Assembly: GCF_006516955.1 (NCBI RefSeq)
Contig: NZ_VHLG01000003.1
Location: 1 to 64,000, forward strand
Length of the DNA stretch: 64,000 nucleotides
Origin: Martelella alba
GTDB lineage: Bacteria > Pseudomonadota > Alphaproteobacteria > Rhizobiales > Rhizobiaceae
Direction of reading: 5' to 3'
Part shown: positions 2,346-59,706 of the stretch, piece after piece
How positions within the stretch are numbered: position 1 is the first letter of the stretch
Layout of the letters: the number at the start of each line of letters is the position of its first letter
Notes under the pieces: generated by a model
Database searches by the model: none
What the model was told of the DNA's origin: nothing
The model's input: the letters and a program-made list of their open reading frames with translations, nothing else
Position numbers and translations under genes: made by a program

Positions 2346-3566
2346 TCATGGCTGTTTGCCAGCGCATTGCCGAAGCACTTCCTGTAGATCCTGTACGACG
2401 GCTTCCGGATTTTCGTAATATCCGAAATGGCCGCCACGAGGATGTGCATTCATGTAGACCGTGTTGAAGAACGAAGCGCGGGGACCAGAAGCGAAAAGCG
2501 CGGCGCGGTCTTCGGTCTTCACGCCTGGAGGGTTTTCTCCGCCCAGGAAGGTGATGCCCACCGGTGCCTCCACAACGGGTTGGCGGTCGTGCGAGGGCGC
2601 CCATGGGTAGCGTGCCGCGTCCGCATAGGCACGCATCGAGGACCCTGCCGTTCCCGTGACCCAGTAGATCGTCGCATTGGCCAGCATGTGTTCGCGGGAA
2701 AAGACCCGTTCGGGGTCACCTGTCACCTTGCCATCGCCGTCGCGCGTGTCGCCCCAGGCCCGCCAACGTTCCAGCAGCCAGGCCAGCAGGCCAACCGGGG
2801 AATCATTTAACCCGTAGGCCATGGTCTGCGGGTCAAGCACGTGTACTGCGAAATGCGCCGCGAACTTGGTGACTGCGGGCGAGACTTTGGCCCCCGTATC
2901 CCAAGCCCGCGCCGCCACGTTCCACGGCATCTGTGTGCCGAACTGGTCCAGCAGCATTGGGTGCATGATGTGAATGCCGTAAAGGCTTTCGGCGTATTTG
3001 TGCCCCAGTTGCGAGGCGATCAGCGCGCCCCAGTCACCGCCGCTGGCCGCATAGCGCTCGAAGCCCAGCACATCGGTCATCAGCCGGTGCCATAGGTCCG
3101 CGATCTGCCAGAAAGTCAGGCCCGCACGCGGGACTGTGCCGGAAAAGCCATAGCCGGGCAGGGATGGGATAATCAGCTCGAACGCCTCGGTGGGATCACC
3201 GCCATGGGCAGCAGGGTCGGTCAGCGGGCCGATTACGCGTTCCATGTCCCAGAACGACCAGGGCCAACCGTGGGTCAAGATCAGCGGCTTTGGGGCAGGG
3301 CCTTTGCCGGGGATACTCAGGTAGTGGATCGGAATACCGTCAATCTTGACCCGCCAATTGTCATAGGCATTGATCCGTGCCTCGACCGCGCGCCAATCGA
3401 AACTTTCGACCCAGTCCCGGGCGAGGGATCTCAGATATCCTTCTTCGACGCCATAGGACCAATCGCTATTGCCGGGGTCATCCGGCCATCGTGTGGCGCG
3501 AATGCGGGCCACCATGTCATCCAGCACGTTTTGAGCAACGTGGATCGGGTATAAGGTCGGGGTCAT
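2346..3566 (-). CDS. Epoxide hydrolase (alpha/beta hydrolase with N-terminal EHN domain)
   Basis: This 406-residue protein matches microsomal/juvenile-hormone-type epoxide hydrolases. The N-terminal 110 residues form the EHN lid domain with DWRAVEARINAYDNW. The alpha/beta-hydrolase core follows with the oxyanion-hole HGWPWSF, the nucleophile Asp178 in SGGDWGA, and the catalytic His380 in GGHFGYYENPE. The expected reaction is hydrolysis of an epoxide to a vicinal diol through an ester with the Asp. It is the last gene of a minus-strand operon with a short-chain dehydrogenase and a MarR regulator and starts 16 bases after the MarR stop. The substrate is unknown. Its operon and position inside the island suggest cargo for detoxification or catabolism of a xenobiotic. 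Confidence 0.88.
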   Translation of the reverse strand: MTPTLYPIHVAQNVLDDMVARIRATRWPDDPGNSDWSYGVEEGYLRSLARDWVESFDWRAVEARINAYDNWRVKIDGIPIHYLSIPGKGPAPKPLILTHGWPWSFWDMERVIGPLTDPAAHGGDPTEAFELIIPSLPGYGFSGTVPRAGLTFWQIADLWHRLMTDVLGFERYAASGGDWGALIASQLGHKYAESLYGIHIMHPMLLDQFGTQMPWNVAARAWDTGAKVSPAVTKFAAHFAVHVLDPQTMAYGLNDSPVGLLAWLLERWRAWGDTRDGDGKVTGDPERVFSREHMLANATIYWVTGTAGSSMRAYADAARYPWAPSHDRQPVVEAPVGITFLGGENPPGVKTEDRAALFASGPRASFFNTVYMNAHPRGGHFGYYENPEAVVQDLQEVLRQCAGKQP

Positions 3567-18857: not shown

Positions 18858-19826
18858 ATGGAACAGAACGGCAAACCTGGTCGCGGGAAAATCTATTCCT
18901 CAATCCTTGAAACGATTGGCGATACGCCGCTGGTCCGGCTCGACAAGCTGGCCAAAGAGAAGGGCGTGAAGGCCAATCTTCTGGCCAAGCTCGAATTTTT
19001 CAACCCGATTGCATCGGTCAAGGACCGTATCGGCGTTGCGATGATCGAAGCGCTGGAAGCCGAGGGCAAGATCACGCCCGGCAAGACGGTTCTGGTCGAG
19101 CCGACCTCTGGCAATACCGGCATTGCGCTTGCCTTTGCCGCCGCGGCCAAGGGTTACCGCCTGATCCTGACCATGCCGGAATCCATGTCGATCGAGCGTC
19201 GCAAGATGGTCGCCCTGCTTGGCGCCGAGCTGGTTCTGACCGAGCCTGCCAAGGGCATGAAGGGCGCGATCGCCAAGGCTGAAGAACTGGTGGCCGATCT
19301 GCCGGATGCGATCATCCCGCAGCAGTTTGAAAACCCGGCCAATCCGGCGGCCCATCGCAAGACGACGGCGGAAGAGATCTGGAATGACACCGATGGCGCG
19401 GTTGACATCTTCGTTGCCGGGATCGGCACGGGCGGCACCATTACCGGTGTCGGCCAGGTGCTGAAGGAAAAGAAACCCTCGGTCCGGGTCGTCGCGGTTG
19501 AGCCGACGGCCTCGCCGGTTCTGTCCGGTGGCGCGCCGTCGCCGCACAAGATCCAGGGCATTGGCGCCGGGTTCGTGCCGGGCGTGCTGGACACCAAGGT
19601 CTATGACGAGATCATTACGGTTTCCAACGAAGATGCCTTTGAAAATGCCCGCAATGTCGCCCGCATCGAGGGCGTTCCGGTCGGCATTTCCTCCGGTGCG
19701 GCGCTGACGGCTGCCATTGAGCTTGGCAAGCGCCCGGAAAATGAAGGCAAGAACATCGTCATCATCATCCCGTCCTTTGCCGAACGCTATCTCTCGACGG
19801 CACTGTTCGACGGTCTGGGTGAGTGA
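18858..19826 (+). CDS. cysK: Cysteine synthase A (O-acetylserine sulfhydrylase)
   Basis: CysK makes L-cysteine from O-acetylserine and sulfide with pyridoxal phosphate. The 322-residue protein has the PLP lysine Lys55 in NPIASVKDR, the substrate loop [12 protein letters not shown], the phosphate-binding [12 protein letters not shown] and the C-terminal [13 protein letters not shown]. Its terminator hairpin has been split by an inserted 204-base element at 19876-20079. Confidence 0.94.
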
Positions 19827-19853
19827 CGCTTCCATTGCGGCTGACGGAAATGT

Positions 19854-19875
19854 CGGGTCGCCTGAGGCGGCCCGT
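19854..19875 (+). repeat. Left copy of the duplicated cysK terminator stem
   Basis: These 22 bases, CGGGTCGCC-TGAG-GCGGCCCG plus T, are identical to 20080-20101. This copy starts 28 bases after the cysK stop and has no T-run. It reads as the proximal half of a target-site duplication flanking the inserted element. Confidence 0.75.
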
Positions 19876-20079
19876 GAGATTGCTGACACAGTCATTCAGA
19901 TTGCCTGTTTGGGGTGAGGCCCCCTCCGTCGTCATCCCCGTGCTCGTCACGGGGATCCAGGCGCATAAGGGCATTGGATTATAAGAGTCTTTCGCCGTGC
20001 AGACGCATTGCAGCTGGATATCTGTGCCAGGCACAGATATGACGCCAGTGGGGTTTGGAACGTTTTCGCAACAGTCTGA
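19876..20079 (+). mobile_element. MITE-like non-coding element, copy A (204 bp)
   Basis: This element matches 42176-42385 in reverse orientation along its whole length. It starts AGATTGCTGACA and ends with the imperfect inverse TGTTGCG...AGTCT-type tip. It carries two hairpins: TCCCCGTG-CTCGT-CACGGGGA at 19935-19955 and ATATCTGTG...CACAGATAT at 20018-20040. It has no credible gene; the open frames through it are chance translations of the palindromes. It is flanked by an exact 22-base direct repeat of the host terminator stem. It is probably a non-autonomous transposable element, but no cognate transposase is in the window. Confidence 0.7.
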
Positions 20080-20101
20080 CGGGTCGCCTGAGGCGGCCCG
20101 T
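20080..20101 (+). terminator. Right copy of the cysK terminator stem with T-run
   Basis: CGGGTCGCC and GGCGGCCCG pair (one G-T wobble) around TGAG and are followed by TTTTCG. It is oriented for cysK, whose stop is now 253 bases upstream because of the inserted element. Confidence 0.65.
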
Positions 20102-20106
20102 TTTCG

Positions 20107-21033
20107 TTACAGGTCATGCAGAACATAGGCGGCCTTGACCGCGGCGGAGGCGCGGTTTTCCACGCCGAGCTTCACATAGATCTGTTCCAGATGTTTGTTC
20201 ACGGTGCGGGCTGAAAGGCCGAGAATATCGGCAATATCGCGATTGGCCTTGCCCTTGGCGATCCACAGCAGCACTTCGGATTCGCGCACCGTCAGCGGAA
20301 AAGTCTGCCGCAGCACCTCGTCATCGGCAACCGGGTTGGCCGGTGTGATCCGGAACAGAAGCTCATCGGCATTGATCCGTTCGAGAAGCGCCAGCTGAAA
20401 CAGTTTCTTGCCATCGCGTGCGATGGGCAGAAGCGGGGCAGCCGCTCCTGCCGCAGCCTCGTGGCGACGGGCTTTCAGGATTGCCCCGACCTCGGATGTG
20501 AGCCAGGCGACATCGATATCACCACCGATCGCGTCATGGATAAGCCGGCTTGCCTGCGGCGTCAGCCAGAGCGGGCGTCCCGCGCCATTGGTTGCCATCA
20601 GATGGCGGCCAGCCGCGTCGAGGGCGATCCGCGCACTCTGGGTGGAGCGGGCATTGGAAAGATGGACGCGGATGCGCGCGCGTAATTCGTCGATATTGAT
20701 CGGCTTGGTCAGATAATCGACGCCACCTGATTCCAGCGCATGGACGATATGCTCCGTCTCCGATAGCCCAGTCATGAAAATCACCGGGATCGTGTGGGCA
20801 GGGCCGGCCTTCAGCCGCCGGCAGGTCTCGAACCCGTCCATCTTCGGCATCACCGCATCCATCAGAACGATATCGGGTGAGAGCTTTTCGACAATGGAAA
20901 GTGCGTTTGCGCCCGAGGTAGCGATCAGCACCGAATAGCCGCTTTCCTCCAGCGCTTCCGTCAGGAAGGAAAGCGTTTCGGGACTATCGTCCACCAGCAA
21001 TACAATGTCACGGGCTCTTACGGCCTCAGCCAT
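20107..21033 (-). CDS. Response regulator with REC and LuxR-type DNA-binding domains
   Basis: The 308-residue protein has an N-terminal receiver domain (acidic pocket Asp15/Asp16, phospho-acceptor Asp59 in DIVLMDAVMPKMDG, conserved Lys in YLTKPINIDEL). A middle linker of about 110 residues follows, then a C-terminal LuxR helix-turn-helix (LTVRESEVLLWIAKGKANRD, then LSARTVNKHLEQIYVKLGV). Its start overlaps the end of the hybrid kinase gene by eight bases, so the two are co-translated and almost certainly a cognate pair. The long linker is unlike simple NarL regulators, which have little between the two domains. The targets are unknown; the nearby urea-uptake genes are candidates. Confidence 0.9.
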   Translation of the reverse strand: MAEAVRARDIVLLVDDSPETLSFLTEALEESGYSVLIATSGANALSIVEKLSPDIVLMDAVMPKMDGFETCRRLKAGPAHTIPVIFMTGLSETEHIVHALESGGVDYLTKPINIDELRARIRVHLSNARSTQSARIALDAAGRHLMATNGAGRPLWLTPQASRLIHDAIGGDIDVAWLTSEVGAILKARRHEAAAGAAAPLLPIARDGKKLFQLALLERINADELLFRITPANPVADDEVLRQTFPLTVRESEVLLWIAKGKANRDIADILGLSARTVNKHLEQIYVKLGVENRASAAVKAAYVLHDL

Positions 21034-34781: not shown

Positions 34782-36494
34782 ATGCCTTTCAAAATGTCCC
34801 GCGCCGCCTATGCCGGCATGTTCGGCCCGACCACCGGCGACAAGGTCCGTCTTGCCGATACCGAGCTTTTCATCGAGGTCGAGAAGGACTTCACCCATTA
34901 TGGTGACGAGGTGAAGTTTGGCGGCGGCAAGGTGATCCGCGATGGCATGGGGCAGTCGCAGGCAACACGGGCCGAAGGCGCAGTCGATACTGTGATCACC
35001 AATGCGCTGATCATTGATCACTGGGGCATCGTCAAGGCCGATATCGGCATCAAGGACGGTCGCATCGTTGCCATCGGCAAGGCGGGCAATCCGGACACGC
35101 AAAAGGGGGTCGATATCATCGTCGGCCCCGGTACCGAGGCGATTGCGGCCGAGGGCAAGATCATCACCGCTGGCGGCATGGACGCGCATATCCATTTCAT
35201 CTGCCCGCAGCAGATCGAGGAAGCGCTGATGTCTGGCCTCACCTGCATGCTGGGCGGTGGCACAGGCCCGGCGCATGGCACGCTCGCCACCACCTGCACG
35301 CCCGGCCCCTGGCATATTGAGCGCATGATCGAGGCGGCGGATGCTTTCCCCATGAACCTCGCCTTTGCCGGCAAGGGCAATGCCTCGCTGCCGGGTGCGC
35401 TTGAGGAAATGGTGCTGGGCGGCGCTGCGGCACTGAAGCTGCACGAGGACTGGGGCACCACGCCTGCGGCGATCGACAACTGCCTCGCCGTTGCCGACCG
35501 GTATGACGTTCAGGTTATGATTCACACCGATACGCTGAACGAGAGCGGCTTTGTCGAGGATACGGTCAATGCATTCAAGGGCCGTACCATTCACGCTTTC
35601 CACACGGAAGGCGCCGGTGGCGGCCATGCACCCGATATTATCAAGATCTGCGGCCAGTCGAATGTCATTCCGTCATCGACCAACCCGACCCGGCCCTACA
35701 CACAGAACACCATTGCCGAACATCTCGACATGCTGATGGTCTGCCATCACCTGTCCTCGTCGATCCCGGAAGATATCGCCTTTGCCGAAAGCCGCATCCG
35801 CAAGGAAACCATCGCGGCAGAAGACATTCTTCACGACATGGGCGCGTTTTCGATCATCTCGTCCGACAGCCAGGCCATGGGCCGTGTCGGCGAAGTGGCG
35901 ATCCGCACCTGGCAGACGGCCGACAAGATGAAGCGTCAGCGCGGACGCCTGGCGGAAGAAACCGGCGATAACGACAATTTCCGCGTCAAGCGCTACATCG
36001 CCAAATATACGATCAACCCGGCAATCGCCCATGGTCTTTCCCATGAAATCGGCTCGGTTGAAGTCGGCAAGCGGGCGGATCTGGTGATGTGGAGCCCGGC
36101 CATGTTCTCGGTCAAGCCGGATCTGGTTCTGCTTGGCGGCATGATCGCAGCTGCCCCGATGGGTGATCCCAATGCCTCGATCCCGACGCCGCAGCCGATG
36201 CATTATCGCTACATGTTCGGTGCCTATGGCAAGGCGCGGACCAATTCCTCCGTCACCTTCGTCTCCGAGGCCTCGCTTGATGCCGGCCTGTCACACAAGC
36301 TTGGCGTTGCCAAGCAGCTGGTTGCGGTGAAAAACACCCGCGGCGGCATCTCCAAGGCCTCCATGGTGCATAACAGCGCCACGCCGGAAATCTCCGTCGA
36401 CCCGGAAACCTATGCGGTGCACGCCAATGGCGAACTTCTGACCTGCGAACCGGCCACCGTTCTGCCGATGGCGCAGCGTTATTTCCTGTTCTGA
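34782..36494 (+). CDS. ureC: Urease subunit alpha (catalytic)
   Basis: UreC hydrolyses urea to ammonia and carbamate at a dinuclear nickel centre. The 570-residue protein has every active-site residue: His136 and His138 in [11 protein letters not shown], the carbamylated Lys219 in LKLHEDWG, His248 in [11 protein letters not shown], the [12 protein letters not shown] loop, CHHL on the mobile flap and Asp362 in SSDSQAMGR. The start [20 protein letters not shown] is conserved. Maturation requires ureEFG, which lie 6 kb downstream. Confidence 0.97.
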
Positions 36495-42152: not shown

Positions 42153-42175
42153 AGGCACGTGATAGCCACGTGCCT
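42153..42175 (+). repeat. Left copy of the duplicated hairpin flanking element B
   Basis: AGGCACGTG and CACGTGCCT form a perfect stem around five bases, 33 bases after the KdgT-like stop. The 23-base unit recurs with six changes at 42386-42408, on the other side of the inserted element. The four bases before it are CAAC. Confidence 0.65.
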
Positions 42176-42385
42176 CAGACTGTTGACAAACCTCGCAACC
42201 TTTTCTGACGTCATGCCTGTGCTTGGTCCACAGGCATCCAGCCAGCGCGCGTCCGCGCGGCGAAAGAACTTTTCTATTCAATGTCTTATGAACCTGGATC
42301 CCCGTGACGAGCACGGGGATGACGACGGGGGGGGGCGGCCATTCCACCCCGAACAGGCAATCTGAACGACTTTGTCAGCAATCTG
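42176..42385 (-). mobile_element. MITE-like non-coding element, copy B (210 bp)
   Basis: This is the reverse-oriented relative of 19876-20079. Its tips are CAGACTGTTGACAAAC at 42176 and, on the other strand at 42385, CAGATTGCTGACAAAG: inverted repeats that match at 13 of 16 positions. Internal hairpins are TCCCCGTG...CACGGGGA at 42299-42319 and ATGCCTGTG...CACAGGCAT at 42213-42237. A run of G at about 42327-42335 marks the variable part. Flanking 23-base repeats indicate insertion into a hairpin. The open frames here are translations of the palindromes. Confidence 0.7.
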
Positions 42386-42408
42386 GGGCACGTAATCACT
42401 ACTTGCCT
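42386..42408 (+). repeat. Right copy of the duplicated hairpin flanking element B
   Basis: These 23 bases match 42153-42175 at 17 positions; the changes have destroyed the palindrome in this copy. The next four bases are GTTG, complementary to the CAAC left of the other copy. Joining the two flanks across one hairpin copy restores a longer perfect stem, CAACAGGCACGTG with CACGTGCCTGTTG. Confidence 0.6.
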
Positions 42409-59680: not shown

Positions 59681-59706
59681 AGGCCGGCGGAGCGATCCGC
59701 CGGCCT
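59681..59706 (-). terminator. Terminator of ctpA (also lies after rutR)
   Basis: AGGCCGGCGG and CCGCCGGCCT form a perfect ten-base-pair stem around six bases. Read on the minus strand it is followed by TTTTTC, so it terminates the ctpA transcript. It could slow transcription from rutR as well. Confidence 0.85.

Follow-up and report, generated by a model that had tools for sequence, protein, structure and literature searches.

A non-coding element in the cysK terminator

The window analyzed here is a stretch of 64,000 nucleotides from Martelella alba, in which cysK (18858-19826, plus strand; named from a reading of its translation) is followed by a convergent, response regulator-like gene on the minus strand (20107-21033; also read from its translation). 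The interval between them holds an exact 22-base direct repeat, CGGGTCGCCTGAGGCGGCCCGT, at 19854-19875 and 20080-20101 on the plus strand, with 204 bases in between; when extended, the repeat reaches 25 bases at 96% identity (19851-19875 and 20077-20101, spacing 226). CGGGTCGCCTGAGGCGGCCCGT forms a hairpin of nine pairs with a 21-base span. Behind the left copy stands GAGATTG, with no T-run, and the right copy runs into a T-run (TTTT, including the hairpin's last T), with TTTCG after its last T. An earlier note on this DNA had proposed that an element splits the cysK terminator, with the hairpin on both sides and the T-run kept by the right copy and missing from the left. The exact repeat and its recurrence elsewhere confirm the first point, and the sequence at cysK bears out the second, as do most other copies.

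The intervening element, placed at 19876-20079 (plus strand) by the earlier note, is matched at 19877-20079 with E 1.3e-64 by a profile built from 26 copies, this one among them. Its left TIR, TGAGATTGCTGACACAG, lies at 19875-19891 (plus strand) and has its first T in common with the hairpin copy; in the orthologous copy of a second Martelella genome, G005, the left TIR reads TCAGATTGCTGACACAG. Its right TIR, TCAGACTGTTGCGAAAA on the minus strand, lies at 20063-20079. Between the TIRs stand two palindromes, A (19930-19959, plus strand) and C (20015-20044, minus strand), in inverted orientation to each other, and in the middle a hairpin B that begins GCCGTGCAGACGC (19994-20011, plus strand), imperfect here and better paired in other copies. 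Palindrome A has a CGTC head, a 9-bp stem starting with AT, a 5-nt loop, and a CCA tail, as in the description of CGTC-type REPs in PMC3733652. At ∼205-210 bp, elements of this class cannot accommodate a transposase gene, and only short open reading frames touch the present copy. Rfam models run over the window gave no match at the element, and a phage collection searched with it returned none. The window's one Rfam match at gathering level, to 5′ ureB sRNA (34935-35223, minus strand, 117.6 bits), may be due to urease coding sequence.

Copies in two Martelella genomes

Searches with the cysK-site stretch gave at least 42 matches in G000, the genome that contains the window (a draft assembly in 55 contigs), and likewise at least 42 in G005. 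Among 40 relatives, long matches were confined to G005, and those in the other relatives were short and limited to a palindrome. The profile, which used 26 of 30 copies (L066, L068, and L072 were left out with an unrecognized end, L065 was also left out, and L052 was kept with a wrong left start), detected 53 copies, 45 of them full, in 2,376,003 bases (1.18 Mb of G000 and 1.19 Mb of G005). A pattern for the TIRs, with up to two mismatches, matched 79 and 85 times in G000, versus 0 and 0 for the reversed pattern, and 42 and 43 times in G005, versus 0 and 1. At three mismatches, allowed in a search for an autonomous copy, the pattern was too loose, with at least 545 matches, 86 of them in known copies. 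Non-coding, ∼205-210 bp long, bounded by the imperfect TIRs TCAGAYTGYTGACAAAG, and present in many copies, the element is short, gene-less, and multicopy in the manner of a MITE. The arrangement at cysK is not a product of chance, as it recurs at other copies with a different hairpin each time.

Target hairpins and their duplication

By a lenient criterion of at least six pairs and a foot no more than 3 nt from the element, 44 of the 45 full copies have a hairpin on one side or the other (39 on the left and 40 on the right, with 35 having both), compared with 16% and 21% per side at 3000 random positions. Left and right flanks match each other directly in 30 of the 45, the cysK copy included, another five match only in inverted form, and ten match neither way, for which age is a likely cause. 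The threshold for a match was a score of 23, the 99th percentile of 2756 mismatched left/right flank pairs, and the maximum of 52 in that control probably reflects the inclusion of orthologous pairs. The duplications above threshold measure 19-29 bases, and their length follows the hairpin span closely (Pearson 0.87, Spearman 0.86, n = 30); the duplicated stretch is itself a single hairpin in 26 of the 30 cases, versus 107 of 5000 random stretches. Within the eight bases behind the hairpin, at least four Ts occur in 30 of 42 copies on the right and in 2 of 41 on the left; ahead of the left hairpin, at least four As stand in 30 of 41.

The earlier note had suggested a target duplication of about 22 bases, to be found at other copies too, and an element that aims at hairpins and retains the T-run on its far side. 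Flanking duplications are indeed present at those 30 copies, and hairpin targeting with the T-run kept is upheld by the other copies and by the five clean pairs of filled and empty sites described below. The duplication is real and long, but its length follows the hairpin instead of being fixed.

In ten of the 45 full copies the flanks are closer as reverse complements than directly, including the five that pass the threshold only that way; examples are G005_C23:379468, G005_C12:575746, G005_C23:63157, and G000_C33:303617. One hairpin copy seems to have been flipped during or after insertion in these cases. Inverted matches are softer than direct ones because a perfect hairpin nearly equals its own reverse complement, so that the match rests on the loops.

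Filled and empty sites

When the 53 profile matches were compared with the counterpart genome, 31 had no synteny in the stretches compared, for 15 the counterpart site was not empty (in most cases the copy is shared, as at cysK), and seven were called empty. Five of the seven are clean, with flank matches that overlap by 19-23 bases on a single hairpin that is present twice in the filled version; the other two have an overlap of 5 and a gap of 55 at a partial copy. Both directions are represented in the window. A second copy of the MITE at 42175-42386 (minus strand) lies between a left hairpin at 42154-42174 and a right hairpin at 42387-42407 (both plus strand), the right one diverged and the pair under the duplication threshold, and the corresponding site in G005 is empty, with one 21-bp hairpin. 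At 59681-59703 (plus strand) the window itself has the empty site, one terminator-like hairpin, and G005 carries the MITE between two copies of that hairpin. Recombination of one hairpin copy with the other can also excise the MITE precisely and leave an empty site behind. The element is a dispersed, TIR-bounded unit with filled and empty versions of its sites, and the target hairpin stands on both sides when the site is filled.

These sites bear on a different mode of insertion, the replacement of the hairpin as in IS1272, in which the two flanking hairpins would be of independent origin. IS1272 and TnSha1 share with the system described here the transposase family and the choice of hairpin or terminator targets by structure, not sequence (PMC4923244, PMC5678879), and deletion at terminators has been reported for them (PMC4923244). 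In IS1272 the stem-loop is removed and no duplication is made, whereas the Martelella element has the whole stem-loop duplicated: in 30 of 45 cases (35 with the inverted ones) one flank repeats the hairpin of the other in a form particular to that locus, as mismatched flanks rarely do, and each of the five clean empty sites has that hairpin once. Neither deletion of the hairpin nor absence of a target duplication characterizes the element, and replacement is extremely improbable as its origin.

The insertion at cysK is common to G000 and G005; none of the 11 other genomes of the genus that were searched has the element within 500 bases downstream of cysK. The earlier note had expected relatives without the element to lack the doubled hairpin, and this holds for 10 of the 11 cysK loci; in G009, for instance, a cysK terminator very similar to that of G010 has a single hairpin with a T-run. 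The remaining genome, G010, has a hairpin, GGCGCGGGG..CCCCGCGC, twice in the ∼32-290 bases after the cysK stop (locus L024); some 235 bases separate the copies, and a T-run follows the second but not the first. They enclose a different element, which begins TCGGATCGTCGACGAAG and ends GTTTGTCAACAAACTGG, with recognizable TIRs and a CGTC REP pair inside. The doubled hairpin of G010 therefore marks a second insertion and does not contradict the expectation; the cysK terminator appears, from these comparisons, to have been hit twice independently within the genus. Other CGTC REPs occur further downstream of cysK without hairpin duplication, for example in G007, G008, and G009.

An IS1182-family insertion sequence with matching ends

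When 297 genomes of the family were searched for the TIRs, the matches listed included two pairs with a spacing of about 1.5 kb. Between the TIRs of the first lies the gene of a 461-amino-acid transposase that scores 483.5 bits against the IS1182 model NF033551 (cut-off 270), and the TIRs of this insertion sequence, TCAGACTGCTGACAAAC, match those of the short element, TCAGAYTGYTGACAAAG, which makes the latter an IS1182-family MITE. The copy with the second pair (L242, in G047:C5) retains its two TIRs although its transposase gene is interrupted, and the 25-bp hairpin duplication around it has a single mismatch. At least ten plasmid records hold 80% or more of the insertion sequence, of which nine, from the alphaproteobacterial genera Rhizobium, Aminobacter, and Sphingobium, were used. 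All 12 copies with both ends readable, nine from plasmids and three from genomes, are flanked by a duplication of a whole hairpin, 18-25 bp long, exact in 11 and with a single mismatch in one; the insertion sequence and the MITE have the same kind of target and the same kind of duplication. The count leaves out copies with one end, plasmid match H27, distant matches (enterobacteria, L267, L287), and L262, which has a full transposase gene on a contig that ends 38 bases beyond it, so that its other end is unreadable. TIR matches cluster at contig ends in G045, G108, G146, G181, and G257, among the matches listed; copies of IS1182 with these ends probably break draft assemblies.

Target duplications above 18 bp are unusual in general, and IS1202-type elements make long ones. 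The earlier note had drawn its comparison with these elements, a comparison that fails at the level of the family, as the transposase between matching TIRs is of the IS1182 type; IS1202 as the family is ruled out by the same NCBIfam match. ISfinder lists variable direct repeats for IS1182. A fixed-length staggered insertion like that of IS1202, which merely prefers hairpins of coinciding length, would share the long duplications, but it is unlikely here. Duplication length depends on the target: it ranges over 19-29 bases in the MITE, where it tracks the hairpin span (r = 0.87), and over 18-25 in the insertion sequence. In the 12 copies of the insertion sequence the duplication begins and ends at the feet of the stem (11 by script and L323 by eye), and the transposase family differs.

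An IS1182-type transposase probably mobilizes the MITE in trans, because the same TIRs bound an insertion sequence of that family and the same whole-hairpin duplications surround both. The transposase had a match in 14 of 26 genomes searched; neither G000, a draft, nor G005 was among them (0 of 2), and the other genomes of the genus that were searched yielded nothing, fragments, or, in the case of G008, a distant match (32%). The MITEs of G000 and G005 thus seem to be orphans, unless they depend on a transposase that this query missed.

Further MITEs with similar TIRs and other interiors, 114-221 bp long, were found in G008, of the same genus, and in G124, G256, and G257, of other genera. The 43 loci examined yielded 21 TIR pairs (13 in G008, five in G257, two in G124, and one in G256), of which 17 pass the duplication score. 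Most of these MITEs carry one or two CGTC-like palindromes, judged by eye, and a 133-bp element of G257 has none. Units of the form TIR-REP-REP-TIR with other stems are present in G008, G010, G124, and G256.

Palindromes in the interior

Both A and C have the features of CGTC REPs, namely a CGTC head, a stem of 8-9 bp beginning with AT, a loop of 4-5 nucleotides, and a CCA tail. In head, AT-starting 9-bp stem, short loop, and tail, and in forming an inverted pair, they resemble the CGTC-tagged REPs of PMC3733652, a class reported there to be without a dedicated transposase and with its mobility left open; here the REPs are packed between IS1182-type TIRs. A strict scan (loop 4-7) of the 2.38 Mb found 89 REPs, 84 inside MITEs and five outside, and none in a reversed control. 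A looser scan gave 417 matches, 86 inside MITEs, with 39 in the control. Both scans are partly circular, because the MITE profile itself contains the REPs. With 84 of 89 REPs inside the elements, IS1182 becomes a candidate carrier of CGTC REPs, and the packing is supported in the G000 and G005 stretches by this partly circular count and by the units of four other genomes.

REP pairs at loci of other genomes of the same genus and family showed no clear TIRs by eye, and the link between REPs and IS1182 may therefore not be general. A dense cluster of CGTC REPs without clear TIRs also lies at L020:1644-2164 (G016, same family). Searching plasmids with the element returned 37 records, every one from Sinorhizobium, and the best 20 of the 37 cover 46-52% of the query at 71-74% identity. 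Four Sinorhizobium replicons (L227-L230) show the interior arrangement A-spacer-B-C and no TIRs recognizable by eye, so the interior is more widespread than the MITE; this suggests that the REP pair was captured between TIRs in another lineage.

Of the 26 pairs predicted from an alignment of 30 copies, three have both partners changed in some copies: two pairs in palindrome C, each in 13 of the 30, and one in hairpin B, in 7. The covariation term of the alignment is small. A structured interior with some compensatory changes, at copies that stand by terminator-like hairpins, is also what one would expect of an immobile regulatory or terminator cassette that homologous recombination, and no transposon, had spread. 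This origin is very unlikely in view of the TIRs, the locus-specific target duplications, and the alternation of filled and empty sites, and a host function in addition to mobility is possible.

Mechanism and comparison with known systems

The best explanation, to which we give a probability of about 0.9 from the sequence comparisons, is that the element is a TIR-bounded MITE that would be inserted at a hairpin by an IS1182 transposase acting in trans, with duplication of the whole hairpin. The transposase would insert the element at the 5′ feet of the stem-loop, presumably by cutting there, and repair would then copy the stem-loop, leaving a complete hairpin on each side; insertion at the feet followed by repair would make the duplication as long as the hairpin. 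With the A-run kept by the left copy and the T-run by the right, a bidirectional terminator would retain one working copy in each direction. The upstream gene would be expected still to terminate, with the element joining its 3′ untranslated RNA. The fuller proposal is that a structure-reading IS1182 transposase cuts the 5′ feet of an extruded hairpin, the hairpin setting the length and both directions keeping a terminator, and that the CGTC REP pairs are cargo of the MITE; we regard it as an even proposition.

Duplication of a whole stem-loop has been drawn as pathway b in the legend of Fig. 13 of PMC5678879, as a hypothetical route, with removal of the stem-loop proposed there for IS1272. 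Among described MITEs, MITEPye1 of Paracoccus yeei is likewise non-autonomous, intergenic, and RNA-folding, with IS1182-type TIRs, but unlike the Martelella MITE it has 4-bp direct repeats and one to three copies per chromosome (PMC11578231); the words terminator and hairpin are absent from the main text of that article. YPAL/RU-2 of Yersinia is also structured (∼168 bp), with target duplications of 3-26 bp, filled and empty sites, and targets that span or adjoin dyad symmetries, as here (PMC2229807). It differs in its internal inverted repeats and in having no terminal IS-like TIRs, and its duplication length is not described there as tied to the hairpin (PMC2229807), whereas the Martelella MITE has TIRs at both ends. 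Full-text literature searches gave, among the matches listed, no whole-hairpin duplication by IS1182 elements and no comparable terminator-hairpin MITE, and the available sections of PMC3196728 and PMC10969869 hold nothing on either. It is already known that IS1182 elements target hairpins and, separately, that IS1182-type MITEs exist; new, as far as the literature searched tells, are a whole-hairpin duplication with a length dictated by the target, the use of such duplication by MITEs of high copy number, and the enclosure of CGTC REPs in these MITEs.

Natural evidence is thus provided for an insertion route that the literature searched had drawn without demonstrating it, in which an IS1182-type element duplicates a complete stem-loop, and the transposase would recognize a folded hairpin and not a sequence. 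A carrier is offered for the CGTC REPs, whose mobility was left open in PMC3733652. The arrangement suggests a low-cost strategy for a genomic parasite, namely insertion at gene ends with the stop signal probably kept.
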